Source: Myxococcales bacterium (lineage in GTDB: Bacteria > Lernaellota > Lernaellaia > Lernaellales > Lernaellaceae). Taken from it: a stretch of 64,000 bases of DNA. Below, piece by piece: positions 30,292 through 51,791 of the stretch. The stretch is taken from contig JAAYVF010000039.1 of NCBI GenBank assembly GCA_012517325.1, positions 1-64,000 on the forward strand. The letters run 5' to 3'. Every line of letters begins with the position of its first letter. Position 1 is the stretch's first letter. Made by a program: the position numbers and the translations under genes. The notes beneath the pieces were generated by a model that worked only from the letters and a program-made list of their open reading frames with translations, was not told the DNA's origin and ran no database searches.

Positions 30292-31956
30292 TTATTCCGG
30301 CAGGGCGGCGGCGACGACGCGATTCCGGCCTTGCTTCTTGGCGTCGTACAACGCTCGATCCGCGTCGCGAACCAACATATCCACCCCGGAAGGATCGGGA
30401 AAAGAAGTGATGCCGATGCTGACCGTTTGCACGATTTCGTGCGCCGAGCATTTGCAGTAGGCGCACGCTTCGCGCACCTGTTCCGCCACCTCCTGGGCCT
30501 TGAACACCGGACATCCCGGCATGAGAACGCAAAATTCCTCGCCGCCGTATCGGCAGGGCAGATCCACCAGGCGGACGTTGCTCTTGATCAAGCGGGCGAT
30601 TTCGCGCAAGACCAGATCCCCGGTTTCGTGGCCGTAGGTGTCGTTGACCTGTTTGAAATGGTCCAGGTCGATCAACATCAGACTGAACGGCTCGCCACGC
30701 CGCCGCGCCTGATCGATCAGGGTATCCAACTGCGAATCGAAATAGCGCCGGCTCAACAATCCCGTCAGCGAATCGTGATAGGCCAGTTCTTCCAGGATAT
30801 GGGTTTTGTGGCCGATTTCTTCCAGGAGCTGCTTCACCTTGAGCAAACTTTTCATCCGCACCTGGAATTCCTCGCGGCCAAACGGCTTGACCAGGTAATC
30901 GTTGGCGCCGCTGCTCAGGCACGAGAGGATGCCGCGGCGCTGCCCTTCCTTGGCGATGACAACGATCGGCAGCGCTTCGAACAGCACATCCCGGCGCAGT
31001 TTTTCGATCAACGCGGGCCCGTCGATCTGTTTCGTCGTCAGATCGAGGGCAATGATGTCCGGGATCGTCACCGACAAGTGTACCTGGAACTCCTCGACTG
31101 TTTTGCACAGGTTCATCCCGAGGCCTTGTTCCGAGAGAAGCTTACCGAGAATGGAGGCGGTGATCGGGTCGTCCTCCAGGACGATGGCGCTGCGGCGGCG
31201 CGCGTGCCGATGCTGCACGACGATTTTACCGACGAGCCGCGACAGTTCGTCCCGATTGACCGGCTTGCGCAAATAGTCCACCGCACCGACCGAAAATCCA
31301 TGCGGCAGGGAATCGTCGTCCTGCTGGCCGCCGATCAGAATGATCGGCAGTTGCCGGGTTTTGGATTGGGCGGCCAATTCCTCGCCCAATCGCAAGCCGG
31401 AGTGACCCGGCATTTCGATATCCACCAACAACAAATCCGGCGAATTTTCCAGAATCAATCCGTGGCCGCGTTCGGTGTTATCGGCCGTCAGCACCGTGAA
31501 TCCCATCCCGTGCAACTCGCGCTCGAGAAAAGCGCGAACGGTGATGCTGTCGCTGACGATGATCACCAGCGGAAACTCGCGGCGGGCGATTAACTTCTTG
31601 TGCTGAAACTGATTGAGCACATCCAGGACTTGTTCGGGAGTGAACGGTTTGACCAGAATGCCGTCGATCGAATTGTACTCCCAAAAATTTCGGATCTCGC
31701 GATCGTCCAGCGAAGTGGCGACGATAACGGAGATCTGCGACAAACCGGGTGTCGCCTTGATCCGGGCGATGACCTCCCGCGGATTGAAATCGTGCGGAAC
31801 GCCGGGGCCGATTAAAAAATCGGGGGTAAAAGCAATCAACTCATTGATATCGGCCGGGGTGCCGGAAAAAAACCGGACTTGATAGTCGCTGTCCTTGAAG
31901 CATTGCTTCCACATGGAAACCATGAAGGAAGAGCTTTCGATAATCGCTACTTTCAT
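30292..31956 (-). CDS. Diguanylate cyclase with three receiver domains
   Basis: 554 residues: three REC domains and a GGDEF domain. REC1 (1-115) lacks the phospho-acceptor Asp (P-D-F-L-I-G-P-G-V) but keeps V-K-P-F. REC2 has L-L-L-V-D-I-E-M-P and R-K-P-V; REC3 has I-I-A-L-D-L-T and V-K-P-F-G. The cyclase has the active signature R-Y-G-G-E-E-F and, five residues before it, R-L-V-D, an intact RxxD inhibitory site. Architecture is PleD plus one extra pseudo-receiver. It should make c-di-GMP when phosphorylated, with product feedback. It stands alone on the minus strand, convergent with the YD-repeat gene, and may feed the PilZ and HD-GYP proteins encoded at 44-51 kb. Confidence 0.9.
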   Translation of the reverse strand: MKVAIIESSSFMVSMWKQCFKDSDYQVRFFSGTPADINELIAFTPDFLIGPGVPHDFNPREVIARIKATPGLSQISVIVATSLDDREIRNFWEYNSIDGILVKPFTPEQVLDVLNQFQHKKLIARREFPLVIIVSDSITVRAFLERELHGMGFTVLTADNTERGHGLILENSPDLLLVDIEMPGHSGLRLGEELAAQSKTRQLPIILIGGQQDDDSLPHGFSVGAVDYLRKPVNRDELSRLVGKIVVQHRHARRRSAIVLEDDPITASILGKLLSEQGLGMNLCKTVEEFQVHLSVTIPDIIALDLTTKQIDGPALIEKLRRDVLFEALPIVVIAKEGQRRGILSCLSSGANDYLVKPFGREEFQVRMKSLLKVKQLLEEIGHKTHILEELAYHDSLTGLLSRRYFDSQLDTLIDQARRRGEPFSLMLIDLDHFKQVNDTYGHETGDLVLREIARLIKSNVRLVDLPCRYGGEEFCVLMPGCPVFKAQEVAEQVREACAYCKCSAHEIVQTVSIGITSFPDPSGVDMLVRDADRALYDAKKQGRNRVVAAALPE

Positions 31957-40052: not shown

Positions 40053-42989
40053 TCAGAAGCCGCAACCGCCGATCGAGCCGTTGTCATCGTCGTCGTCGCC
40101 GTCAGCCTGATTGTCGTCGTCATCGCCCGTCGAGGCGTCGTCGTCGGTGATGTCGTCGTTGTCATCGTTGTCGTCGTTGTCGTCGTTGTCGTCATTGTCG
40201 TCGTTGTCGTCGTCATCGTCGTCGCCGCCGCCGACGCATTCGTCCATTGCCTCGTCACAGGTTTCGTCCGCATCGCAAGGATTGCCGGTGTTGTCGCAGG
40301 TGTCGGCGCTCTCGTCGCAGCTCTCGACGCCGTTGCAGAACTGGCCGTCGTCGGCGCACGGGGGCACTCCGGCGATGCAGATGCCGTCCCGGCAGACTTC
40401 CTCGCCGTTGCAATAGATGTCGTCGTTGCAATCCGGGTCGCCTTCGCACTCGTTTGTCCAACCGTATAACCGCAGGTTGTCGATCATCCAGTACCATTCG
40501 TAATACGCGTTGTAGTAGTGGAAGCGAAGCTGCAGCGTGCTGAGGTCGCCATCGGAAAGATCGATCTCGGCGGTTTCCTCGTAGTCATTCGTTTGGTAAC
40601 GCATGACGTTTTCCCAAACCAAAGCGCCGTTGATCTTCACGTCCACATCGCCGACTTCCTCGCTATAGCTGTAGAAATAGTGGTCGAAGCGCAGGAAGAC
40701 GTTCTCGTAATCGCCGACGTTGATTTCCTCGCTGATCAGCTGTTCGTCCATGTTCGAGCTCGAATAGTAATCCGAGTCGCAAATCATGAAGGTGCCGCTC
40801 ATCAGGCTGTTGGAACGGCCGCCGGGATTGGTGTCGGTCCAGGTGCCGCTGCCGGTGCCGCCGTCGACGATATCCCAGTCATGCAGCCACTTATTGCCGC
40901 TGTCTTCCCAGGTTTCTTCCCAGATGACCACCGGGCCGACCGGCTTGGCGTAGATTTCGATCGCGTTGGTGTCTTCGTGGCCGAAGGAATCCTCCGCCCG
41001 AACCACGTAATAGTAGGTCGTGCCGTTGACGACCCCGGTGTCGACGTAGGAGGTCTGTGCCGTGCTGGCGGTCGGGCTCAGGAAGTTCTGGCCGCCGCTG
41101 GTCAGGGCGCGGTACACGTTGTAGGTAACCGGCGAAGCGTCGATCGCGGTGTTCCACGACAGGGTGACCTGATTGTCGCCGGGCATCGCCAGGGTCAAAC
41201 CGCCGAAAACGGGCGGCGCGCAGTCGATGATCGCCGCGTCGGTCTTGGGCACGTTGGTGCCGCCTTCGCCGTCGTCGGCGTCGATGTAACGGACCAGCAC
41301 GTCGTCGCCGTTGTGGATTTGCAGGATGCCGTCACCGGCCTGCATCGCGCCGACGGCGGTAACGATGGAGCCTTGATAGACGCCGTCATCGTCGGTGGCG
41401 TCGAGGGTGACCGTTTCCGGCGTCGTCTCGGTGGTGCTGCCGATCTCCACGTCGATCGACGGGCCGGTCAGGTCGGCGTCGCGCACTTCGATGTCGATGG
41501 TGTCGCCGCAAGCGAAGGCTTCGCCGATTTCCACCTTGCCGTCGGAGCTGACGAAATAGTCCATCAGGTAGTAGTAGGCCTCGACGAGATCGATCCGGCC
41601 CATGCCGAAGGTGTTGTCTTCGCCGGCCGAGCCCAGATCGACCGCGGTCATATAAAGGCCCATTTTGATTTCATCGGGAGTCGCCTCGGGGAACGCCTGG
41701 CGGAGCAACAGCACGGCACCGGCCACGTGCGGGGTGGCCATCGAGGTGCCGCTCATGAGCTGGTAGCCGCCGCCTGGCATCGCGCTGCGGACGTCGACGC
41801 CGACCGCCGAGACTTCCGGCTTGATCGAACTGCCGTCGCAATCGGACGGGCCGCGGCTCGAGAAGTCGGCAATGGTCGAGTTGTCCTGCTCCAGGGCACC
41901 GATCGAGAAAACGTTGTATTGCGAGGCGACGCGGTTGCCCGGGCTGCGCAGGGACGACGAATCGGGGCCCTCGTTGCCGGCCGCGAACACCACCACCACG
42001 CCGGCCGCTTCGGCGGCGTCGATGGCGGCGTTGAAGTCGGCGCGGCAGGAGCCGTAATACCATTGGTTCAAGCCCCAGGAATTGTTGACGACGTCGGGCA
42101 CATCGTCCAGGGTCGCCGGGTTTTCATCGGGGTCGGCCATCCATTGGAAAGCCGCAACGGCGTCGGAGAAGATGTTGCCGCCGGTGTCGATGGTTTTCGC
42201 ACCGATCCACTTCGCGCCGGGCGCCATGCCGATCTGGTTGCCGGCGCCGTCATCGCCCAGAATGGTGCCGAGCGTGTGCGTGCCGTGCTGGCCGGAATCG
42301 GTGGGGAAGGTCTCGCCGTCGAGCGGGTCGAACCACGCCGCCGAGGGCGCGACGCCGACATCCAAGCCGCGCCACCGGTCGGCAAACGCCGGGTGGTTGC
42401 CGTCGGCGCCGGTGTCCTGATCGCAAGCCAGGGTGCCGGTGCCGTCGATGCCCAACGCCCACAATTCAGGGGCGCGCGAAGCGGTGATGCCGTTTTCCAC
42501 CCCGCGGCCGGCGATGTTGGAAGGAATCGGCGTACCCACCGGTTCGATCAATTCGATCGGGTAGTCGAGATACACGACCTTGACCTCGGGTTGCGCGGCC
42601 AGCAGGCGGATGAAGTCGGGCATGGCCTGCACGGCGAACCCGTTGACGATCCAGAACGGTTTGAATTTCTTCACCTGACGCATGATCTGGCCTTCATGCA
42701 ACAGTTCGGCCACGGGGCCCTGGCTGATGTCCGCGACATCCTGCAGTTGCGTGATGACTTCGTAGTGGCTCCGCGCCCGGCCGCCGCCCGCTTTCTTCGC
42801 GTCGGCGAGCGCCTGATTCAAATCCACTTGCTGCTGAAGAATGACCAGTACTTTCACGATATCGGTGGGCTTGGCATTCGCCAGTTGATCCGCCAAATCG
42901 GGATCCAGAGTTCCCGCCACAGCAGTGTTTTGCCATACTCCGGCCATGACGGCCGCGGCCAGCATCAAAACCATCAGTATTCGCTTCAT
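40053..42989 (-). CDS. Secreted subtilisin-like (S8) protease with C-terminal Cys-rich module and Asp/Asn tail
   Basis: 978 residues. An ordinary signal peptide (N-T-A-V-A, cleavage about residue 25) has no lipobox. An I9-like propeptide (K-V-L-V-I-L-Q-Q-Q-V; about 30-130) follows. The S8 triad is in D-T-G-A-D-G-N-H-P (about Asp190), G-Q-H-G-T-H-T (about His235) and G-T-S-M-A-T-P-H-V-A-G (about Ser415). C-terminal of it are a fibronectin-III-like domain, a MAM/jelly-roll domain (W-E-E-T-W-E-D-S) and a Cys-rich module (C-N-G-E-E-V-C; F-C-N-G-V-E-S-C). An Asp/Asn tail of about 50 residues ends G-S-I-G-G-C-G-F. GAGGAAAAG precedes ATG 42989; the frame upstream to 43100 lacks a signal. The C-terminal Cys may anchor the protease. 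Confidence 0.88.
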   Translation of the reverse strand: MKRILMVLMLAAAVMAGVWQNTAVAGTLDPDLADQLANAKPTDIVKVLVILQQQVDLNQALADAKKAGGGRARSHYEVITQLQDVADISQGPVAELLHEGQIMRQVKKFKPFWIVNGFAVQAMPDFIRLLAAQPEVKVVYLDYPIELIEPVGTPIPSNIAGRGVENGITASRAPELWALGIDGTGTLACDQDTGADGNHPAFADRWRGLDVGVAPSAAWFDPLDGETFPTDSGQHGTHTLGTILGDDGAGNQIGMAPGAKWIGAKTIDTGGNIFSDAVAAFQWMADPDENPATLDDVPDVVNNSWGLNQWYYGSCRADFNAAIDAAEAAGVVVVFAAGNEGPDSSSLRSPGNRVASQYNVFSIGALEQDNSTIADFSSRGPSDCDGSSIKPEVSAVGVDVRSAMPGGGYQLMSGTSMATPHVAGAVLLLRQAFPEATPDEIKMGLYMTAVDLGSAGEDNTFGMGRIDLVEAYYYLMDYFVSSDGKVEIGEAFACGDTIDIEVRDADLTGPSIDVEIGSTTETTPETVTLDATDDDGVYQGSIVTAVGAMQAGDGILQIHNGDDVLVRYIDADDGEGGTNVPKTDAAIIDCAPPVFGGLTLAMPGDNQVTLSWNTAIDASPVTYNVYRALTSGGQNFLSPTASTAQTSYVDTGVVNGTTYYYVVRAEDSFGHEDTNAIEIYAKPVGPVVIWEETWEDSGNKWLHDWDIVDGGTGSGTWTDTNPGGRSNSLMSGTFMICDSDYYSSSNMDEQLISEEINVGDYENVFLRFDHYFYSYSEEVGDVDVKINGALVWENVMRYQTNDYEETAEIDLSDGDLSTLQLRFHYYNAYYEWYWMIDNLRLYGWTNECEGDPDCNDDIYCNGEEVCRDGICIAGVPPCADDGQFCNGVESCDESADTCDNTGNPCDADETCDEAMDECVGGGDDDDDDNDDNDDNDDNDDNDDNDDITDDDASTGDDDDNQADGDDDDDNGSIGGCGF
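40066..40236 (-). repeat. C-terminal Asp/Asn tail coding repeat (subtilase)
   Basis: About 55 codons of D-D-N units, ending three codons before a Gly-Gly-Cys-Gly-Phe stop. In contrast to the lipoproteins it is at the C-terminus. Confidence 0.85.
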
Positions 42990-43118
42990 GTTCTTTTCCT
43001 CTTTCCAAGGGATTGCCTTCAAATCCGATGCAGTTTGACATGAAACCGGGCGCTGAACAATAGTGGGAAAGCTACAATAACGAGCTTTTTGGGAAAACAA
43101 AAATTTCTGCGAAATAGG

Positions 43119-44090
43119 CTAGCGGCGCTGGCCGGTTTCCAATTGCCAAGCGCCGTCGACCAGGGTCAGCAGGATCGTGCCGTTCACGTCGGTGCGATAA
43201 AGCTCCATTCCGGTGGCCTCGTAGGCGTTCAGCGTCGTTTGCGCCGGATAACCCATGGCGTTTTCGCCGACCGACAACACGCCGATGGATGCGCCTTGCT
43301 GGGCGACGAAATCCGCGCTGAACGGCGCATAACCGTGCGCCGGGATTTTTATCACGTCGCAGTCGATCAATGCTCCGTAGTCGTCGTAGATTTCCTGTTG
43401 CGCCGTGTTACGGATGTCGCCGGTGAGCAGCACCCGAGCGCCCTGATAGGTGACCAGTTGCACCAGGCTGTTGTTGTCGTATTCGGGATAGTCGCTGTCG
43501 GCATGGACCGTCAGGATTCCCGCGTCGCCCAATGAATCGAAATCACCCTGCTCCTTGACGACCGTCGGTCCGCCCCATTCCTGTAATTTTTGTTGGAACT
43601 GCAGGTAAGCTTCCTCTTCGCTGGCTTCGCCGTTGGTCCAGACCGTGCCGACCTCGACGCAATCGAAAACTTCCGACAAACCGCCGCAGTGATCGTAATC
43701 GGGATGCGTCAGCACCATGACGTCGATCCGCTCGATGCCGCGCGCCGCCAAATCCGGGCAAATGATCTCGCTGCCGCTGCCGATCAGGCCACCGTCGACC
43801 ATCATCGTGTAGGGGCCGGGAATTTCGACGAGGATCGCGTCGCCCAGGCCGACATTGTAAAAGCGGGTGGAAAAATTTTGCGGGTCGAAAGTGACGTCGT
43901 CGTTGTCATCGTCGCCGGTATCGTCATCGCCGCCGGTATCGTCGTCGCCGCCGGTATCGTCGTCGCCACCGGTATCGTCGTCCGCGTCATCGTCGTCATC
44001 CGCCGCGGGATAATCGAGCCCGCCGCAAGCCGCCACCAACCAGCAAGCCACCAACGCCGCCGCCAGGATCCAACCGCTTATTTTTTTCAT
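43119..44090 (-). CDS. MBL-fold (ComEC-C-like) metallohydrolase lipoprotein
   Basis: 323 residues. Lipobox W-L-V-A-A-C (about Cys22), then a linker with four D-D-D-T-G(-G) units instead of D-D-N. The catalytic domain has F-Y-N-V-G-L-G-D-A-I-L-V, T-H-P-D-Y-D-H-C-G-G (HxDxDH zinc motif), L-L-T-G-D-I-R and I-P-A-H-G. This order is that of the soluble beta-lactamase-like domain of ComEC/Rec2 and its free-standing exported relatives, implying a phosphodiester substrate such as DNA or a nucleotide outside the cell. It follows the subtilase on the same strand but is probably separate. Confidence 0.82.
   Translation of the reverse strand: MKKISGWILAAALVACWLVAACGGLDYPAADDDDDADDDTGGDDDTGGDDDTGGDDDTGDDDNDDVTFDPQNFSTRFYNVGLGDAILVEIPGPYTMMVDGGLIGSGSEIICPDLAARGIERIDVMVLTHPDYDHCGGLSEVFDCVEVGTVWTNGEASEEEAYLQFQQKLQEWGGPTVVKEQGDFDSLGDAGILTVHADSDYPEYDNNSLVQLVTYQGARVLLTGDIRNTAQQEIYDDYGALIDCDVIKIPAHGYAPFSADFVAQQGASIGVLSVGENAMGYPAQTTLNAYEATGMELYRTDVNGTILLTLVDGAWQLETGQRR
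43896..44012 (-). repeat. 18-base tandem repeat coding D-D-D-T-G-G units
   Basis: Four near-exact 18-base units (reverse strand: gccgccggtatcgtcgtc type) encode DDDTGG. Unlike the D-D-N linkers this one is regular at the DNA level. Confidence 0.8.
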
Positions 44091-44200: not shown

Positions 44201-45307
44201 TCAGGCATCGCCCATCGCCCGGCGAAACATCGTCGCGCGGCACTTGGCGTCCTCGTTGCTTTTACGGATTTCGAGGATCTGATCGACGATCTCGAAAAAC
44301 GCCGCCGTCACCTGGGGATCGAAATGCGCCGGGGCCATTTCGCGGATGATCGTCAGCGCCTTGTCGTACGAAAAGGCTTCTTTGTAAGGGCGGTGCGTCG
44401 TCAGGGCGTCGAAAACGTCGGCAATGGCGACGATCCGGCCGACCTTGGGGATGTTATCCCCTTGCAGGCCGCGGGGATAGCCCGTGCCGTCCCATTTTTC
44501 ATGATGGGTCAGCGCCACGACTTCCGCCATTTGAATGACGTCGAAATCGGATCCGCGCAGCAATCGCGCGCCGATGGTGGTATGTTGCTTCATCGTCTCC
44601 CATTCGTCCGGATCCAGTTTGGCGGGCTTCAATAAAATTTTGTCCGGGATGCCGATCTTGCCGACATCGTGCATCGGCGCCGCGTACAACAGGGACTCGC
44701 TGTCGCCGGGATTGAGCTCCATCTTCCGGGCGATCGCCGCCGCGTAAAAGCCGATCCGCATGATGTGCGCGCCGGTATCCTCGTCCTTGTATTCGGCGGC
44801 TTGCGAGAGCCGGAAAATCGTGTCGAGCGACGCCAGTTTGTTTCGCTCCAGCGCCTGCTTGAGCTGCACCGTGCGATGCGTCACCTCGGTTTCCAGTTGC
44901 TTCTGGTAGTGGAGCAGATAGTCGTTGTATTCCTTGACTTTCAGCAGGCTGCGAATCCGCGCCTGCAACTCGATCCGGTCGACGGGCTTGGACATGAAAT
45001 CGTCCGCCCCGGCGTCCAGGGCATGCACCCGGTCCTTCACCTCGCTCAGGGAGGAAATGATCACCACCGGAATTAATTTCAACTGGGCATCGTTTTTCAA
45101 TTGCCGCGTGGCTTCCAACCCATCCATCATCGGCATGCGAATGTCCATCAAAATGACTTCCGGCGACAGTTCGCGGGCTTTTTCGACGGCGATTTTACCG
45201 TTGGCCGCCTCGACGACTTCATAACCGAGACGCGTCAGCATGGTCTTGAATAGGAGTCGGTTGGAGTCCTCGTCATCGGCCACCAAAATGCGTTTTGGTC
45301 TGTCCAT
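44201..45307 (-). CDS. RpfG-like response regulator: REC plus HD-GYP c-di-GMP phosphodiesterase
   Basis: 368 residues. The REC domain (1-120) has acidic pocket V-A-D-D-E, phospho-acceptor I-L-M-D-I-R-M-P and M-S-K-P-V. A short coiled coil (Y-L-L-H-Y-Q-K-Q-L-E) leads to an HD-GYP domain with M-H-D-V-G-K-I-G-I-P-D, H-T-T-I-G-A and H-H-E-K-W-D-G-T-G-Y-P-R-G, all metal and signature residues present. Size and layout match RpfG. It hydrolyses c-di-GMP when phosphorylated, presumably by the hybrid kinase encoded just upstream (183-base gap, same strand). AAGGAG lies 8 bases before ATG 45307. Confidence 0.92.
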   Translation of the reverse strand: MDRPKRILVADDEDSNRLLFKTMLTRLGYEVVEAANGKIAVEKARELSPEVILMDIRMPMMDGLEATRQLKNDAQLKLIPVVIISSLSEVKDRVHALDAGADDFMSKPVDRIELQARIRSLLKVKEYNDYLLHYQKQLETEVTHRTVQLKQALERNKLASLDTIFRLSQAAEYKDEDTGAHIMRIGFYAAAIARKMELNPGDSESLLYAAPMHDVGKIGIPDKILLKPAKLDPDEWETMKQHTTIGARLLRGSDFDVIQMAEVVALTHHEKWDGTGYPRGLQGDNIPKVGRIVAIADVFDALTTHRPYKEAFSYDKALTIIREMAPAHFDPQVTAAFFEIVDQILEIRKSNEDAKCRATMFRRAMGDA

Positions 45308-45490
45308 CAAACCGTCTCCTTCCACTTTTGCGGACAAATAATGATTGATCGTCTCACCGTTTATCGGCAGAAATCCTTGGACCGATGAGCCGAAAAAAGT
45401 ATCATTCGGTATGGATAGCTGCCGACCCTGCCCGTCGCACACGCAACTTTTTGATATGATAGCACTTTTGGCATAATAGGCAAGATTTTT

Positions 45491-48130
45491 TTAAGCGGAA
45501 TGCGAATCCGACGATTCGGCGGCGCCGATTTGCAGCGGGAATTTCATGATGAATTCCGCCCCGCCGCGGCTTCCCTTGGAAAGCGCCTGGATATCGCCGC
45601 CGTGCGCGACGACGATATTGCGCACGGTTGCCAATCCCAACCCGGTGCCGGACTTTTTCCCGGAAGTCGCGAACAGGTCGAACAGCGTATCCGTAAGCTC
45701 GGCGGGGATGCCGGGGCCGTCGTCGGCCACCCGCACCTCGATGGCCTGGCGCTCCGGCTTCACGCTGATCCAGATGTGTTTCGGCGGCCCGTCCGCCGCG
45801 TTTTCAACCAGGGCTTCCTGGGCGTTTTTCAGCAGATTTTCAAACACTCGCTGCATCCGGTTGGGATCCCAATTCAACTCGACCGACTCGTCCTTGCCGA
45901 GATCCAGGATGAGTTCGATCCCCATCGCGGACAGGCGATCGCGGATCGGCGCGCAAATGCGTTCGAGATAGGGTTTCACCGCGGTGGGCATGGTTTGCAA
46001 ATCGACGGCCTTGCCGCGCGCGAAATCCAGCACCTCGGTGATCATCTGTTGCAGCCGCCGGGCCTCGAGGACGATCGGGTCGATCATCTCGCCGACCGAA
46101 TCGACCGCGCCGGCCTCGACATCGGCCTTGAGCAGCTCGGCGAAACCCAGAATCGAGGTGAGCGGGTTTTTCAGGTCGTGAACAATGGAACTGGTCATTT
46201 TGCCGATCGCGCTGAGCCGGCTGTCGCGTTCCTGCAAATTCTTTTCCAAGCGGTGAACGCGCAGATGGGCCGCCAGGCGCGCTTCCAGTTCGCGCATTTC
46301 GAACGGCTTGCTGATGTAATCGTTGGCCCCGATCTCCAGGCCCTCGACCACGGCCTCGGCGCCGGACTTGGCGGTCACCATGACCACCGGAACCTTGTCG
46401 TAGGCGCCGTCGGCGCGCAGCCGGCGGCAAAATTCGTAGCCGTCCATGCGCGGCATCATCACGTCGGAGAGAATGAGGTCGGGGGTGAACCGGCGCAGTT
46501 TTTCGAAGGCCTCGACGCCGTCGTTGGCCGTTTCGATCCGGTAGCGGTTCGACAGCGAGTTGGCCACGAAGGTTTGCAGATCGAGGTTGTCCTCCAGATA
46601 CAGGAGGCGCGGCGCGTCAGCCGGCGCCTGGTTCTTCGCCGCCGCGACGGAGTCGGCGCGGCTTTCCAGCTTGGCGCCCTCGACGTCCGACAACAGGGTG
46701 CGCGCATCGGAACGTTTTTCGAGTTGCGCCCCGACCAACGCCGCGGTGCGCTCGGCCGCCATCTTGTCCTCGATACGGCGGCCGGGGTTGCGCCGCCGTT
46801 CCAACGGCTTGAATTCGGGGTTCCGCGGCAATTCCACGTGAAAGGTCGATCCTTCGCCCAGGCGGCTTGTCACACTGATGCGCCCGCGATGCAACTTCGT
46901 CAGTTCCTTGACCATCGCCAGGCCCAGGCCGGTGCCTTCCGATTGGCGCGACAACGTGTTGTCCACCTGCAGGAAGCGCTCGAAGATATCGTCGAGCTTG
47001 TCCTCGGGAATGCCGGTGCCGGTATCGGCGACCTCGAACCAGATCTTGTCCGCGTCGTAATCGATCCGCAAAACGATGTGGCCGCCCTGGGGAGTGAATT
47101 TCAGCGCGTTGGAAAGCAGGTTCGCGGCGATCGTCTCGACTTTTTCGGGATCCATCGGGCATTCCGGCACGCGGTCCGCGTTTTCCAGCGAAAGCGCAAT
47201 GCCCTTGCGCGCGGCGTGCGGCCGCGCCGCATCGGTCAATTCCTTCAAAATGGCGCCGAGATTGGTGGCAGTGTAATGGCACTGGAGATTGCCGGAATCC
47301 ATCTTGGCGAAATCGAGGATCGTGTTGACCTGACGCAGGAGTCGCCGGGCGTTGGTGTCCATGGCCGCGAGCATTTCGGGCGTGCTCGCCGGTTCGCGGC
47401 CCTGGCGCAACGCTTCCAGCGGCCCGAGAATCAGCATCAGGGGCGTGCGCAGCTCGTGGCTGACGTTCGAGAAAAAGCGCATCTTGGCTTCGTCGAGGGC
47501 CTTGAGGTCCTCGTTGTTTTTCTCGATCTGCATGCGTTGCATGACGTCTTTTTTCCGCGTCCGTTCCTTTCCCCAGTTGGCGAAAATGGTGAAAATCGAG
47601 GTGCCGCCGAGAAAGAACACCGGCCGGCTCACGCTCACCAGCGTCGCGGTGTCCATCGCCACCGCCAGGTTGACCGCCAGATAGCCGCCGACGACCAGGA
47701 GGCAGCAGACGATGGTGGGTTTCATCGGCCAGGGCATGAACAACCCTGCCACGAAGAGCGCCATCAGCACGCCGATGTAATAGTCGCTGGCGAACCCGCC
47801 CATCAACGGAATCATGATCACGATGCCGAAGGCGGAACTGAAAACGACGCCGACCGAGATCGCATAAGCCAGCCGGCGGCCGAGCGGCCGATTGAGCAGC
47901 GCCAGGCCGATCAGGTAAGTGGCCAGAACGCCCAGGCGGAAAAGCAGAAACAGCTTCTTGTTTTCCGGCGAGGCCAGCAAATCCAAAAACCAGAACAGCG
48001 GATAGACGAACGAGGCGATCCACAACGCGTACTTGGTGTGCAGGATCGTCTTGTCCAGCGTTTCCTGGCGCAAGCGCTCCCGGAAAACAGGATTTTCGGT
48101 CGGTTCCGGTTTGACACTTTCCGTCAACAA
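45491..48130 (-). CDS. Membrane hybrid histidine kinase with HK-REC-HK architecture
   Basis: 879 residues. An N-terminal sensor has about six TM helices (about 30-195, including G-G-F-A-S-D-Y-Y-I-G and P-W-P-M-K). Kinase 1 has S-H-E-L-R-T-P (His about 223) and A-D-T-G-T-G-I-P. A REC domain has I-L-S-D-V-M-M-P (Asp about 554). Kinase 2 has V-H-D-L-K-N-P-L (His about 651) and A-D-D-G-P-G-I-P (about 805). A multi-TM kinase followed by a receiver with its own kinase output equals PhcS joined to PhcR, or RpfC with a kinase instead of HPt. The TTG start at 48130 overlaps the previous stop by 7 bases; no ATG is near. It probably senses a lipophilic signal and drives the HD-GYP regulator. Confidence 0.85.
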   Translation of the reverse strand: MLTESVKPEPTENPVFRERLRQETLDKTILHTKYALWIASFVYPLFWFLDLLASPENKKLFLLFRLGVLATYLIGLALLNRPLGRRLAYAISVGVVFSSAFGIVIMIPLMGGFASDYYIGVLMALFVAGLFMPWPMKPTIVCCLLVVGGYLAVNLAVAMDTATLVSVSRPVFFLGGTSIFTIFANWGKERTRKKDVMQRMQIEKNNEDLKALDEAKMRFFSNVSHELRTPLMLILGPLEALRQGREPASTPEMLAAMDTNARRLLRQVNTILDFAKMDSGNLQCHYTATNLGAILKELTDAARPHAARKGIALSLENADRVPECPMDPEKVETIAANLLSNALKFTPQGGHIVLRIDYDADKIWFEVADTGTGIPEDKLDDIFERFLQVDNTLSRQSEGTGLGLAMVKELTKLHRGRISVTSRLGEGSTFHVELPRNPEFKPLERRRNPGRRIEDKMAAERTAALVGAQLEKRSDARTLLSDVEGAKLESRADSVAAAKNQAPADAPRLLYLEDNLDLQTFVANSLSNRYRIETANDGVEAFEKLRRFTPDLILSDVMMPRMDGYEFCRRLRADGAYDKVPVVMVTAKSGAEAVVEGLEIGANDYISKPFEMRELEARLAAHLRVHRLEKNLQERDSRLSAIGKMTSSIVHDLKNPLTSILGFAELLKADVEAGAVDSVGEMIDPIVLEARRLQQMITEVLDFARGKAVDLQTMPTAVKPYLERICAPIRDRLSAMGIELILDLGKDESVELNWDPNRMQRVFENLLKNAQEALVENAADGPPKHIWISVKPERQAIEVRVADDGPGIPAELTDTLFDLFATSGKKSGTGLGLATVRNIVVAHGGDIQALSKGSRGGAEFIMKFPLQIGAAESSDSHSA

Positions 48131-51100
48131 GATTTACACGCCCTGACAATCACCGCCGTGGTGGGATCTCCGAAAGATTCCGTGGTCAGGACGTCCGTAA
48201 ATCCTGCTTCGGCCACCATGCCCGCGAACGCATCGGCCGCGAAAAATTGGAATCGGCCCTCGTCCTCCAATTCCATGACGCAGCCGACGAAACTGGCGAA
48301 TTCGCGCAAACTGTCGAGCAGGCGCACCCTTTCCGCCTCGTCCAAATCATACCGCGCGGCAATGGTGCGCGCTTCGTCCAAATAGGATTTGGAGGAATCG
48401 AAATTGGGTTTCAGACTCGAGACGACCAGGATGCCGCCCGGTGACAGCAACCGGTGGAATTCCCGCAGGATCGAAAGCGGATCGTAGGTATAGGAGAGCA
48501 CCAGGGAACAACCGATGCGATCGAAGCAGCCGTCCGGCGCCTCGAGCCGGCATTCGCGATTCGCGGGGCCGAAATTCAGCCGGCTGAACGCCAGGTTGGC
48601 GGCGTTCGCGGCCGCCGCGCAGCCGGGACGCAAATCGCCCGGCACGGTCTGGCGAGTCAAAAAGCGGCTGGCGCGGGACAAATCGCGGACGATTTCCCAC
48701 TCCTCGTCGTTGAGGGCCGGGTATTTTTTCCGCGACACGGCCGCTTCGGGGATCTCGCCGCGTACGAAACGGTGCAACGTGGAATCGTAAGCGGCCAGCA
48801 GGCGCTTGAGCGCTCCGGCGTGCAACCCTTCCACCCGGCCGAGCAACGCTTCCAGGCTGTGCAGGCGCCCCTGCAGAAAATCGCGCCAGGGCAACAGGCG
48901 CGCTGCTTCCAGGTTCATCACGCGGCAATCGAGGTTGACGGCCGGCCGCTGTTCGCCGGGCAAATCGCCGAGCCACGACTCGATCTTTCGCTTCGTCAGC
49001 TCGACCGCCCCGGGAACCAGATCGATGCAGGCCAGATCCAGCCGTTCGCCCGGCGCGGTGAAACGCCGCAGCAACCGCAGAGAAAAATTGCCGGTGCCGC
49101 AACCGATGTCCGCGACGCGCAACCCCGAGGCCAGGTCGAGCCAATCGACCTGCCGATCGAGGAACGCGACATAATCCGGGTTGTACAGCAGGACATCGTA
49201 ACCTTCCCGCTCGCCCGCCGTGCCGAACAGGTGGCGGTTCCAGAAGTCCGTCGCGTCGGTGATGTTTTCCTTCTTCACGCGAGCCCATTCGGCGTCGTCC
49301 TGCCGGGCGAAGGCGGCCATGTCCGGTTCGCCGGCTTCGATGTTTTTTCCGAACAGGTGCCGGAAGATGGATTCGCCGATCAATTTGAACGAGGCGATCG
49401 CCTCGTCGCCCGATTTGAGAATGTGCCCCGAGGGCAACTCGAAAATTTCCCGCCGGCCGCCGCCCGGCGCGTTGAGCAGTTGCCGGACGCGTTCGCGCGT
49501 CACCATGTAATCGTAAGTGCCGACGATCCAGGTGACCGGAATCGTGATTCGCTCCATGTCGGCGCGCGCCTGATCCAGAAAAGCCATGCCCCGCTCCATG
49601 GCGTCGGGGAAGACATAATTGGGATCGGCCAGCCGGCCGTAGATGAGGAACGGTTCCGCCTTCTCGCCGTGCAGATAGTATTGGAACAGGTCGATGCCGG
49701 CGAGGTAGTTCTGGAACATATCCTGCGCGTCGGGGCAGCCGAACGGAGCGATCCACAGATCGACGGGTGGCTTCTCGCCGTCGGCGATCAACCGCCGGGC
49801 GGCCATCGCCGCGACCGAAAACGTCAGCACCACGCGCCGGCGGGGGCGAAAACGCTTTTCGAGGTGGCGCAGGCTGGCCGACAGATCCGACTCGAGTTGC
49901 GAGAAGGTCCACTTGAGGTACGGTGTGCCGCGCGCCTCCATTTCGGGATCGATGTAGCTTTCGCCCACCGTGTGCGTGGCATCGAACCGCAACACGACGC
50001 CATGGACGCCTTGCCGCTTGAAATTATCCACCAGCGTGCGCGCCAACAGACTGAACACTTCCTTGCGTTTGAGAAAGGCCGGCGCCACGACGACCGCCAC
50101 GTCCACGTCGGGCGCGTCCTCGTTGATGTCGAACGTCGCGTTGAGCAGGGCGACGACGTTTTCGCCTTGGGCGTTTTTATAACGGGCGATGTTAACCGGC
50201 TCCCGCCCCTTGCTCGCCTTGCCACGCAACCGGCGCCGCGCCTGTTCCTTGACCACGCCCCAATAGCGGGTCAGCGTGTTCCAAACAGTCGGTTTGACCG
50301 AACGGCGTTGCAGGTCCGCGAAGGCATCCCGCTCCGACCGGTCATCGGCGAAACGCAACCCGATCAGCCATTCCTCGGCGTTCAGGCGGGTCAGGCGCTT
50401 GATCGTGGCGCCGTCGAATTCGCGGACTTCTTTCCCGTCCAGCAAATGAAAGGCCGGCAGGCGCATTCCTTCCATGAAGAGGCAGCCTTGCGGCGCGCGC
50501 AGGGAAAAACCGTTTTCGCTCAGGTCGACCACCGGGAAACGAATCGGGCAACCGGCGAGTTGGCTCGTTTGCATTTCCACCCAGGCGCCGGCCTGCATCC
50601 GGCGCGGACCCGAACGGCGTTCGTTGTGGTAAAGCCGTTGGGGCCAGCGCAGAATCGTTTCCTCGCCGGTGGATTCGATCAATCCCTCGAATAGCAGGTG
50701 CAACGGGCCGTTGAGCACCGCCACGTAGATCGCCTTTTCGTTGCCGCTCAGCGGTTTTTCCAGCTGCCGCAGTTTCAAGCGGTCGGCGCCGATAAAAATG
50801 GCCGCGGCGCCGGGCTCGGCCTTGCCGTTGGGATCGATCACCAGAACGCGGTGGCCGTTTTGACCGGCCGCGGTCAGCCGTTCGCGGATCGCGGCGGCGT
50901 CGCTCAGCGGCAGCAAGTTGCCGGACAGGACGTCCTTCATCCGGGATTGAATGCGAACCACCGCCTCATCCATTTCCGCGAAGCCCGCGTAATGGCGCAG
51001 CCGCGACAGATCCTTGTGGTGCAAATCCTCGAAGCGCAGGGCGAAGCCGTCCTCGTCCACCCGAATCACTGAACCACCGACCCGAATCGGCCCCTTGGCG

Positions 51101-51432
51101 CCCGTCGGCAGCTGGATCCGCAATTCAACGCGAGTCCCGACCGGCGGTTGCTTCGACGAGTGAATATAAGCGGCCTCCGAGCTTAGGTCGGCCACATAGG
51201 CATCGGTCGGGAACCCGGATTCCACCGCAGCGGCTAACGGGGCGTTTGTTTGCCGGCGCGTCGCTCGGCGCAATTCACGATCGGTTCCGGGCCGAAAAAC
51301 GCCTTCCGGGTCCTTCCCGCCGTCGGAAGTGACGATATTTGCTTTTGACGCATCGACGGCAGGCTTCTCCGAGTAGGCATTTCCTGAAGAATCGACCAAT
51401 ACTTTGGTGTGTGATTCATCGCAGTTATGCAT
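48124..51432 (-). CDS. PilZ-PilZ-alpha/beta hydrolase-SAM methyltransferase fusion
   Basis: 1102 residues, an unusual four-part fusion. PilZ-1 (about 50-150) has R-R-A-T-R-R but a weakened second motif (D-L-S-S-E-A). PilZ-2 (about 265-370) has both c-di-GMP motifs, R-R-S-G-P-R-R and D-L-S-E-N-G. The alpha/beta hydrolase (about 405-690) has a LuxD-like nucleophile region T-F-S-V-A-A (Ser about 537, no glycines), G-T-Y-D-Y-M-V (Asp about 639) and S-G-H-I-L (His about 669). The class I methyltransferase (about 740-1095) has motif I V-A-D-I-G-C-G-T-G-N-F. No signal peptide. It is first in a run with the hybrid kinase (overlapping stop and start) and the HD-GYP gene. A c-di-GMP-gated enzyme that makes or methylates an acyl signal is the working idea. 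The start has no clear ribosome-binding site. Confidence 0.8.
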   Translation of the reverse strand: MHNCDESHTKVLVDSSGNAYSEKPAVDASKANIVTSDGGKDPEGVFRPGTDRELRRATRRQTNAPLAAAVESGFPTDAYVADLSSEAAYIHSSKQPPVGTRVELRIQLPTGAKGPIRVGGSVIRVDEDGFALRFEDLHHKDLSRLRHYAGFAEMDEAVVRIQSRMKDVLSGNLLPLSDAAAIRERLTAAGQNGHRVLVIDPNGKAEPGAAAIFIGADRLKLRQLEKPLSGNEKAIYVAVLNGPLHLLFEGLIESTGEETILRWPQRLYHNERRSGPRRMQAGAWVEMQTSQLAGCPIRFPVVDLSENGFSLRAPQGCLFMEGMRLPAFHLLDGKEVREFDGATIKRLTRLNAEEWLIGLRFADDRSERDAFADLQRRSVKPTVWNTLTRYWGVVKEQARRRLRGKASKGREPVNIARYKNAQGENVVALLNATFDINEDAPDVDVAVVVAPAFLKRKEVFSLLARTLVDNFKRQGVHGVVLRFDATHTVGESYIDPEMEARGTPYLKWTFSQLESDLSASLRHLEKRFRPRRRVVLTFSVAAMAARRLIADGEKPPVDLWIAPFGCPDAQDMFQNYLAGIDLFQYYLHGEKAEPFLIYGRLADPNYVFPDAMERGMAFLDQARADMERITIPVTWIVGTYDYMVTRERVRQLLNAPGGGRREIFELPSGHILKSGDEAIASFKLIGESIFRHLFGKNIEAGEPDMAAFARQDDAEWARVKKENITDATDFWNRHLFGTAGEREGYDVLLYNPDYVAFLDRQVDWLDLASGLRVADIGCGTGNFSLRLLRRFTAPGERLDLACIDLVPGAVELTKRKIESWLGDLPGEQRPAVNLDCRVMNLEAARLLPWRDFLQGRLHSLEALLGRVEGLHAGALKRLLAAYDSTLHRFVRGEIPEAAVSRKKYPALNDEEWEIVRDLSRASRFLTRQTVPGDLRPGCAAAANAANLAFSRLNFGPANRECRLEAPDGCFDRIGCSLVLSYTYDPLSILREFHRLLSPGGILVVSSLKPNFDSSKSYLDEARTIAARYDLDEAERVRLLDSLREFASFVGCVMELEDEGRFQFFAADAFAGMVAEAGFTDVLTTESFGDPTTAVIVRACKSC

Positions 51433-51791
51433 ACGTTCGAATATGACAGATCAATGGTAAAAGGTCAAGCGAATCTGCCTAGTTGATCCAAAGATACTAG
51501 CAATATTCAATCTTATCAAACAATTATTTATTTGATATTATTCACTGGATTAGTTTATCAAAGCCAACCTAACTATTGAATTGTAAATGACAAATATTAC
51601 TTTTTCACCTTTGGAAAATACTTATAATAACCATCTTTTGCCGCCCTTGGGGGCGAACTGAAAAATACGAGTGAAAAAAATCCGTCGTTTTCGAAACCAA
51701 ACACTTCCCTCCGGCCGCGATGGCGGTTCCGCCGCCCAATATCCGGCCGCAATCGGAGTGAAAATCGCCCCCGGATCCGGTCGCAAGGGTG
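51433..51791. other. AT-rich intergenic region upstream of the PilZ-fusion operon
   Basis: No gene. 51440-51640 is strikingly AT-rich against GC-rich flanks and contains several inverted short repeats such as ATTTGTAAATGACAAAT-like pairs (about 51580-51596). It probably carries the promoter and regulator sites of the minus-strand signalling locus. I could not single out a -35/-10 pair. Confidence 0.45.

Follow-up and report, generated by a model that had tools for sequence, protein, structure and literature searches.

The 64,000-nucleotide stretch of contig JAAYVF010000039.1 analysed here (the window) carries on its reverse strand a single gene that fuses PilZ domains, a LuxD-type alpha/beta hydrolase and a methyltransferase, and this fusion is the first gene of a conserved cluster that continues with a membrane-bound hybrid sensor kinase and a response regulator of the receiver (REC)-HD-GYP type. 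We see roughly an even chance that the locus is a lipid-signal system regulated by cyclic di-GMP (c-di-GMP), in which a synthase is encoded beside its own receptor. An initial annotation of the window had recognized the domains of the fusion, its likeness to LuxD and its PilZ motifs, but was incomplete in that the kinase and REC-HD-GYP genes, and with them the cluster, were overlooked. The fusion is made up as follows.

48124..51432, reverse strand: the whole fusion gene, a single open frame of 1102 amino acids with an ATG start.
50989..51270, reverse strand: PilZ domain 1 (residues 55-148), matched by Pfam PF07238 and a beta-barrel in the model, with RxxxR present and with Ala for Gly87 in DxSxxG.
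50638..50940, reverse strand: YcgR-N-like (PilZN) domain (residues ~165-265), from a profile match to PP4397 (2GJG/3KYF) and a Foldseek match to YcgR (5Y6F).
50323..50637, reverse strand: PilZ domain 2 (residues ~266-370), the second Pfam PilZ stretch, with complete RRSGPRR and DLSENG motifs.
49333..50199, reverse strand: LuxD-type alpha/beta hydrolase (residues 412-700) with the triad S539-D641-H670, from profile, Foldseek and the bridging homologue G148.
48127..49320, reverse strand: class I S-adenosylmethionine (SAM)-dependent methyltransferase (residues 705-1102), matched by Pfam Methyltransf_31/23/11/25.
48613..48915, reverse strand: helical insert of about 100-120 amino acids inside the methyltransferase, visible in the alignment and as helices in the model, in some clades only.

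We regard these domain assignments as practically certain. From the N- to the C-terminus the protein reads PilZ1, YcgR-N-like domain, PilZ2, hydrolase and methyltransferase with its insert. Pfam recognized PilZ at 2.5e-13 (two stretches) and several methyltransferase models at ~1e-10 to 1e-12. The AlphaFold model, built with a 44-sequence alignment, has a mean pLDDT of 84.3 and a pTM of 0.73, and its comparison with the PDB by Foldseek placed LuxD (1THT) at rank 1 (E 1.3e-12, TMt 0.77) and YcgR with c-di-GMP (5Y6F) at rank 13 (E 1e-10). The four domains named in the initial annotation are present in the order it gave, and the motifs it quoted are in place (RRSGPRR 272, DLSENG 303, TFSVA 537), but the YcgR-N-like domain between the two PilZ domains had escaped it. 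Further motifs are RRATRR at 55, DLSSEA at 82, GTYDY at 638, PSGH at 667 and DIGCGTG at 775.

The chance that a frameshift or an assembly error has joined separate genes is negligible. Split genes in all close relatives had been named at the outset as the sign of such an artefact; the relatives carry instead full-length intact fusions at 47% (G003) and 55% (G400) identity, with dozens more beyond these, and intact single-gene homologues are present in several phylum-level groups, most of the genomes surveyed being drafts or metagenome-assembled genomes with approximate gene starts. Nothing was found in favour of an artefact, the one blemish being an in-frame TAA in the hydrolase part of the G062 copy (L020:5179-8109, JAUYMQ010000518.1), which may reflect a pseudogene, a strain mix or a sequencing error. 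A near-identical methyltransferase end, with the kinase downstream, lies on a second G062 contig (L050).

Of 60 genomes surrounding the window genome, G003 alone, a member of the same class, yielded a close relative, and the G003 fusion is encoded in one frame. The nearest homologue, that of G400 (L085; 55% identity full-length, 64% over hydrolase plus methyltransferase), was drawn from another phylum; that it lies closer than the homologue in G003, a genome of the same class, suggests either inter-phylum transfer or mis-binning. The G400 cluster has the same three-gene order as the window. When 386 genomes from across Bacteria were searched with a profile, four carriers came up (the window genome, G003, G062 and G148), and a repeat over this sample with a broader profile added none. 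A scan of named genomes found a further fusion (L026) in 'Proteobacteria bacterium isolate F1-120-MAGs226', and in the phylum of this organism 55 of 379 genomes gave strong hydrolase-plus-methyltransferase matches, most of them in open frames of 800-1300 amino acids. The notion of a one-off architecture was therefore rejected: the fusion is found in only 4 of 386 genomes across Bacteria but is common in one phylum. A contig scan with a two-row alignment confirmed no relative, the chosen patterns having fallen outside the parts conserved in distant members; a second contig scan recovered L025 and L026, plus generic methyltransferases. A tblastn search of plasmids with the hydrolase-methyltransferase part gave no match, and one with the G148 hydrolase gave a single record, annotated as acyl transferase and presumably a lux construct.

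The homologues fall into a long form with PilZ1 (about 930-1300 amino acids) and a short form consisting of the YcgR-N-like domain plus PilZ, the hydrolase and the methyltransferase (about 800-960 amino acids). Pfam PilZ at E 0.01 matched only 9 of 18 short-form proteins, and the short-form PilZ domain was assigned via alignment with PilZ2. The G148 variant (L021:6904-9468) carries an SRPBCC/START-like lipid-binding domain (PF03364, 1.2e-6) between PilZ and the LuxD-type part, where it replaces the YcgR-N-like domain and PilZ2.

Judged by its motifs, the N-terminal module very probably binds c-di-GMP. The receptor motifs RxxxR and [DN]xSxxG are complete in PilZ2 of the window protein, and complete but for G87A in PilZ1; a YcgR-N domain stands ahead of PilZ, as in YcgR-type receptors, and the profile of the module matches 8U0I as well as PP4397 (2GJG/3KYF). 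The contrast drawn in the initial annotation between a weakened PilZ1 and a complete PilZ2 is right for the window, where PilZ1 is weakened because Gly87 is replaced by Ala, but it fails for the family as a whole. Across the homologues, PilZ1 keeps R55 in 27/27 and G87 in 30/33, whereas PilZ2 keeps R273 in 40/41 and R277 and G308 in 41/41, with D303 in 23/41 and S305 in 27/41. The Ala in PilZ1 of the window and the partial loss of D303 and S305 in the family would also suit PilZ domains that serve as a mere scaffold, without binding c-di-GMP, for a constitutive enzyme. Such an arrangement seems quite improbable, given that the PilZ2 motifs of the window are complete, that RxxxR is kept in both PilZ domains, and that c-di-GMP enzymes lie within or beside the cluster in many lineages.

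For the hydrolase, the relationship to LuxD proposed earlier holds by sequence as well as by fold, 1THT being the best PDB sequence for the family profile (6.5e-8). In the Pfam scan of the window protein the hydrolase part stayed below all cut-offs and PF02273 was not matched, yet the bridging homologue G148 matches PF02273 (Acyl_transf_2) at 8e-35 (120.9 bits) and 1THT at 9e-29, and the G062 homologue passes the PF02273 cut-off at 21.0 bits; the window hydrolase is therefore a distant relative of that family and not a formal member. The Ser-Asp-His set with TFSVA in place of GxSxG, which the initial annotation had pointed out, is borne out: Ser539, Asp641 and His670 are unchanged in 44/44 aligned homologues, and Ser539 aligns, via the G148 homologue, with LuxD Ser114 (AxSxS). 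The nucleophile lies within [ST]xSx[AS] in most homologues, with G or Q in the last place in a few, and R482, D484, G490 and S492 likewise never vary across the 44 aligned fusions.

LuxD relatives free acyl chains from acyl carrier protein (ACP), and the substrate of the hydrolase is probably an acyl-thioester. LuxD also forms an acyl-enzyme intermediate in the lux system, and the acyl chain can be passed on. The hydrolase might thus act as an acyltransferase that hands the chain to an acceptor, with the methyltransferase modifying the acceptor or the product, so that an N-acyl or secondary-metabolite signal would result and no methyl ester; the nucleophile motif, LuxD-like rather than GxSxG, would agree with this. 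We consider it improbable, though a little less so than a mere PilZ scaffold, as no consistently adjacent acceptor-synthesis gene was recognized in neighbourhoods whose systematic scan covered signalling and MMPL domains only.

In the methyltransferase, the Pfam match is split into residues 773-819 and 940-1008 by an insert of ~120 amino acids. Motif I is as clean as was first described (DIGCGTG at 775), and its G777 and G779, together with S976, Y981 and S1005, are kept in 44/44 homologues. Against NCBIfam, the window methyltransferase scored above the cut-off of no family.

The partner of the fusion is the kinase encoded immediately downstream.

45491..48130, reverse strand: hybrid sensor kinase of 879 amino acids with six transmembrane helices (6TM) followed by HisKA-HATPase-REC-HisKA-HATPase, its TTG start overlapping the fusion stop codon.
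47495..48130, reverse strand: the 6TM sensor domain of the kinase, modelled at pLDDT 95.8, with fold matches to ImcA (8WCN) and adenylyl cyclases 5 and 9.

The phosphorylation motifs (H225, D556, H651) and the ATP-site motifs of the kinase are all present, and the G003 kinase has the same architecture at 50% identity. Downstream of the fusion, 41 of 45 loci encode in the same orientation a kinase that shares this 6TM domain, and the reading frames often overlap; the loci were picked for a strong fusion match and are not random genomes, and related loci do not count as independent events. In this and the other neighbourhood counts, frames run from stop to stop and gene types are domain profiles seeded from these loci. 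Two of the exceptions (L020, L110) are contig ends, and the sister contig of L020 shows the kinase. The 6TM domain is present in one copy each in the window genome and G003; it was not found in G001, G002, G004 and G006, all without the fusion, and G005 gave a weak match only. Pfam assigned the window 6TM domain to no family, and MASE8 (PF20968) matched 10 of 42 relatives at E up to 0.1 (L026 scoring 21.7 against a cut-off of 26.2); a plasmid tblastn search with the domain returned nothing significant. Compared with the membrane domains of the diguanylate cyclase ImcA and human adenylyl cyclases 5 and 9, the 6TM model gave TMq values of 0.62-0.72 at E 2e-3 to ~1.

The remaining elements of the window cluster flank these two genes.

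44201..45442, reverse strand: REC-HD-GYP response regulator of 413 amino acids (Pfam Response_reg and HD_5) with intact HDVGK and HHEKWDGTGYP, likely starting at an ATG at ~45307.
51433..51788, reverse strand: AT-rich, divergent intergenic region upstream of the fusion, with promoter-like matches at 51608, 51519 and 51468 that are consensus matches only.

The former is a putative c-di-GMP phosphodiesterase, and the latter is the probable promoter region of the cluster. When the loci were grouped by the clades of a maximum-likelihood tree, a separate REC-HD-GYP gene was seen in the window, G400 and G003; L087 and L089 have HD-GYP in place of the kinase's second histidine kinase module; in another clade (8 loci) a GGDEF gene comes next; and most loci of the L026 clade have a REC-HATPase response regulator upstream. 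In the short-form loci, an MMPL/RND gene is adjacent in 15 of 17, directly after the fusion in 11 and beside it on the opposite strand in 4, and five scanned intervening proteins of these loci match Pfam MMPL at 1e-29 to 2e-37. In G148, GGDEF lies 4 bp downstream and HD-GYP nearby, and HD-GYP or GGDEF domains occur within or adjoining 14 clusters overall. The elements synthase, exporter, receptor and c-di-GMP turnover are thus met again and again, variously combined, with one enzyme and one type of sensor domain at the core. An open frame of 1606 amino acids in L103 that looked like an MMPL-kinase fusion was rejected, as that frame holds no MMPL domain and the MMPL gene is in another frame.

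Several other genes lie close by. In the window, a subtilase-family protease of 1015 amino acids (40053-43100) and a metallo-beta-lactamase-fold protein (43119-44090) are encoded on the same strand just downstream of the REC-HD-GYP gene, and a GGDEF-domain open reading frame of ~554 amino acids (30292-31956) is a possible further source of c-di-GMP. At L026:1-4902 a large ketosynthase/acyltransferase multidomain protein, judged by eye to be of the polyketide or polyunsaturated fatty acid synthase type, is encoded near the fusion on the opposite strand.

The architecture fits a control by c-di-GMP of acyl release and methylation by the fusion. We propose that c-di-GMP bound by the PilZ/YcgR module would set the activity of the enzymatic half, where Ser539 would take the acyl chain off an acyl-thioester (acyl-ACP or acyl-coenzyme A) and the tethered methyltransferase, with SAM, would yield a methylated form of the released product. 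The first guess for that product would be a fatty acid methyl ester, although this particular identity is less likely than not. The product might leave the cell unaided, or via the MMPL exporter where one is encoded, and would meet its sensor in the membrane, the 6TM domain of the hybrid kinase encoded with the fusion; the chances that the product is the ligand of the adjacent kinase stand about level. The REC domain and second kinase module would then relay to the REC-HD-GYP protein, or in other lineages to an attached HD-GYP or a GGDEF protein, and the changed c-di-GMP level would feed back on the synthase through its PilZ input, closing the loop. In its broadest form this would be a widespread, hitherto unknown class of bacterial cell-cell signalling. 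A single protein would both sense c-di-GMP and, as thioesterase plus methyltransferase, synthesize a lipid autoinducer; it would be paired with a hexahelical-receptor kinase of its own and, in one branch, with an MMPL exporter. Production of the signal would be gated directly by c-di-GMP, which the signal would reset in turn. This we advance only tentatively, with the odds somewhat against it.

Four observations weigh against the proposed signal system. First, among the many unrelated small-molecule methyltransferases that match the methyltransferase profile, phosphoethanolamine N-methyltransferases rank highest, and an acyl carboxylate substrate is therefore not indicated by sequence. Second, D303 and S305 of PilZ2, both intact in the window, are partly lost in the family (see above), so c-di-GMP binding may not be universal. 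Third, by E-value (2.4e-3) the 6TM domain gives a weak fold match, and the fold also serves other ligands. Fourth, the pairing with the kinase has exceptions: no kinase lies near the fusion in L086 (G756), although L087 and L089, members of its sister clade, carry a kinase with HD-GYP, and in G148 the place of the 6TM kinase is taken by a 7TM-GGDEF protein 4 bp downstream. Some of this would suit membrane-lipid remodelling, in which a membrane lipid would lose an acyl chain or gain a methyl group (on a headgroup amine, for example) through the fusion as c-di-GMP changes, and the 6TM kinase would read the state of the membrane, with no diffusible signal. Phosphatidylethanolamine as well as phosphoethanolamine N-methyltransferases are among the best PDB matches of the methyltransferase profile, MMPL proteins are established transporters of structural lipids, and a kinase reading membrane composition would be linked to the fusion equally well. 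Yet the hydrolase has its nearest relative in an acyl-ACP thioesterase rather than a phospholipase, and such pairing, one kinase type to one fusion together with c-di-GMP enzymes, is seen more typically in signalling. With a dedicated 6TM kinase in the cluster, and with either an MMPL exporter or enzymes of c-di-GMP turnover, the likely function shifts from lipid metabolism to lipid signalling, and we give remodelling perhaps half the weight of the lipid-signal system.

The usual targets of PilZ proteins are motility or polymer secretion, and allosteric switching of a lipid-releasing enzyme by c-di-GMP, if true, would be new. If the product is indeed the kinase ligand, the locus would amount to a complete synthase-(exporter)-receptor system carried, in one large phylum, by 55 of the 379 genomes sampled, and a class of ligands could be named for an orphan 6TM sensor domain, which bears on the debate over adenylyl cyclase membrane domains as lipid receptors. 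In the open-licence PMC literature, no paper on PilZ with LuxD was found, nor any title or abstract with this architecture among papers on PilZ, methyltransferases and quorum sensing.

Individual parts of the system resemble well-known proteins. LuxD (PF02273, 1THT), a myristoyl-ACP thioesterase, shares with the fusion hydrolase the alpha/beta hydrolase fold, the Ser-Asp-His triad and a nucleophile elbow other than GxSxG, but the identity is only ~16%, the fusion hydrolase is joined to PilZ and methyltransferase domains, and no luxC/luxE context was seen. YcgR and PP4397 (PilZN-PilZ) share the YcgR-N-like domain followed by PilZ (fold match 5Y6F, profile match 3KYF), whereas the module of the fusion would be an enzyme input rather than a flagellar brake, and the long form has an extra N-terminal PilZ domain. 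The 6TM receptors of class III adenylyl cyclases, CqsS and ImcA share the hexahelical membrane sensor fold with the window kinase, whose domain, unlike theirs, has no significant sequence family. Adenylyl cyclase membrane domains have been reported as fatty acid receptors in mammals (PMC11606603), and their 6TM design has been exchanged with that of the quorum receptor CqsS (PMC4821796).

As a whole, the locus works like the Rpf and Phc systems and is filed as a member of neither. PhcB-PhcS-PhcR/PhcQ of Ralstonia, likened here by description, likewise has its methyltransferase synthase encoded alongside a membrane kinase and a receiver; the PhcB methyltransferase makes 3-OH MAME, which is sensed by PhcS, and the Phc signal is a fatty acid methyl ester (PMC8578825, PMC11960443). 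PhcB, however, is described as a methyltransferase only, whereas here thioesterase and PilZ domains are fused to the methyltransferase and kinase and receiver form one protein. RpfF-RpfC-RpfG, of the diffusible signal factor (DSF) type and likened by gene content, combines an acyl-signal synthase, a membrane hybrid kinase and a REC-HD-GYP phosphodiesterase in one locus, and RpfC binds the fatty acid DSF (PMC5391125). A membrane hybrid kinase together with a REC-HD-GYP protein is likewise found in the window, G003 and G400, and in L087 and L089 the HD-GYP domain is fused to the kinase. RpfF is a crotonase-fold enzyme, and this synthase fold is absent here: no crotonase domain was found in the scanned genes neighbouring the fusion. 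RpfF is unrelated to the LuxD-type hydrolase plus methyltransferase of the fusion, and the predicted c-di-GMP sensor domains on the synthase would, unlike the Rpf arrangement, allow direct feedback.

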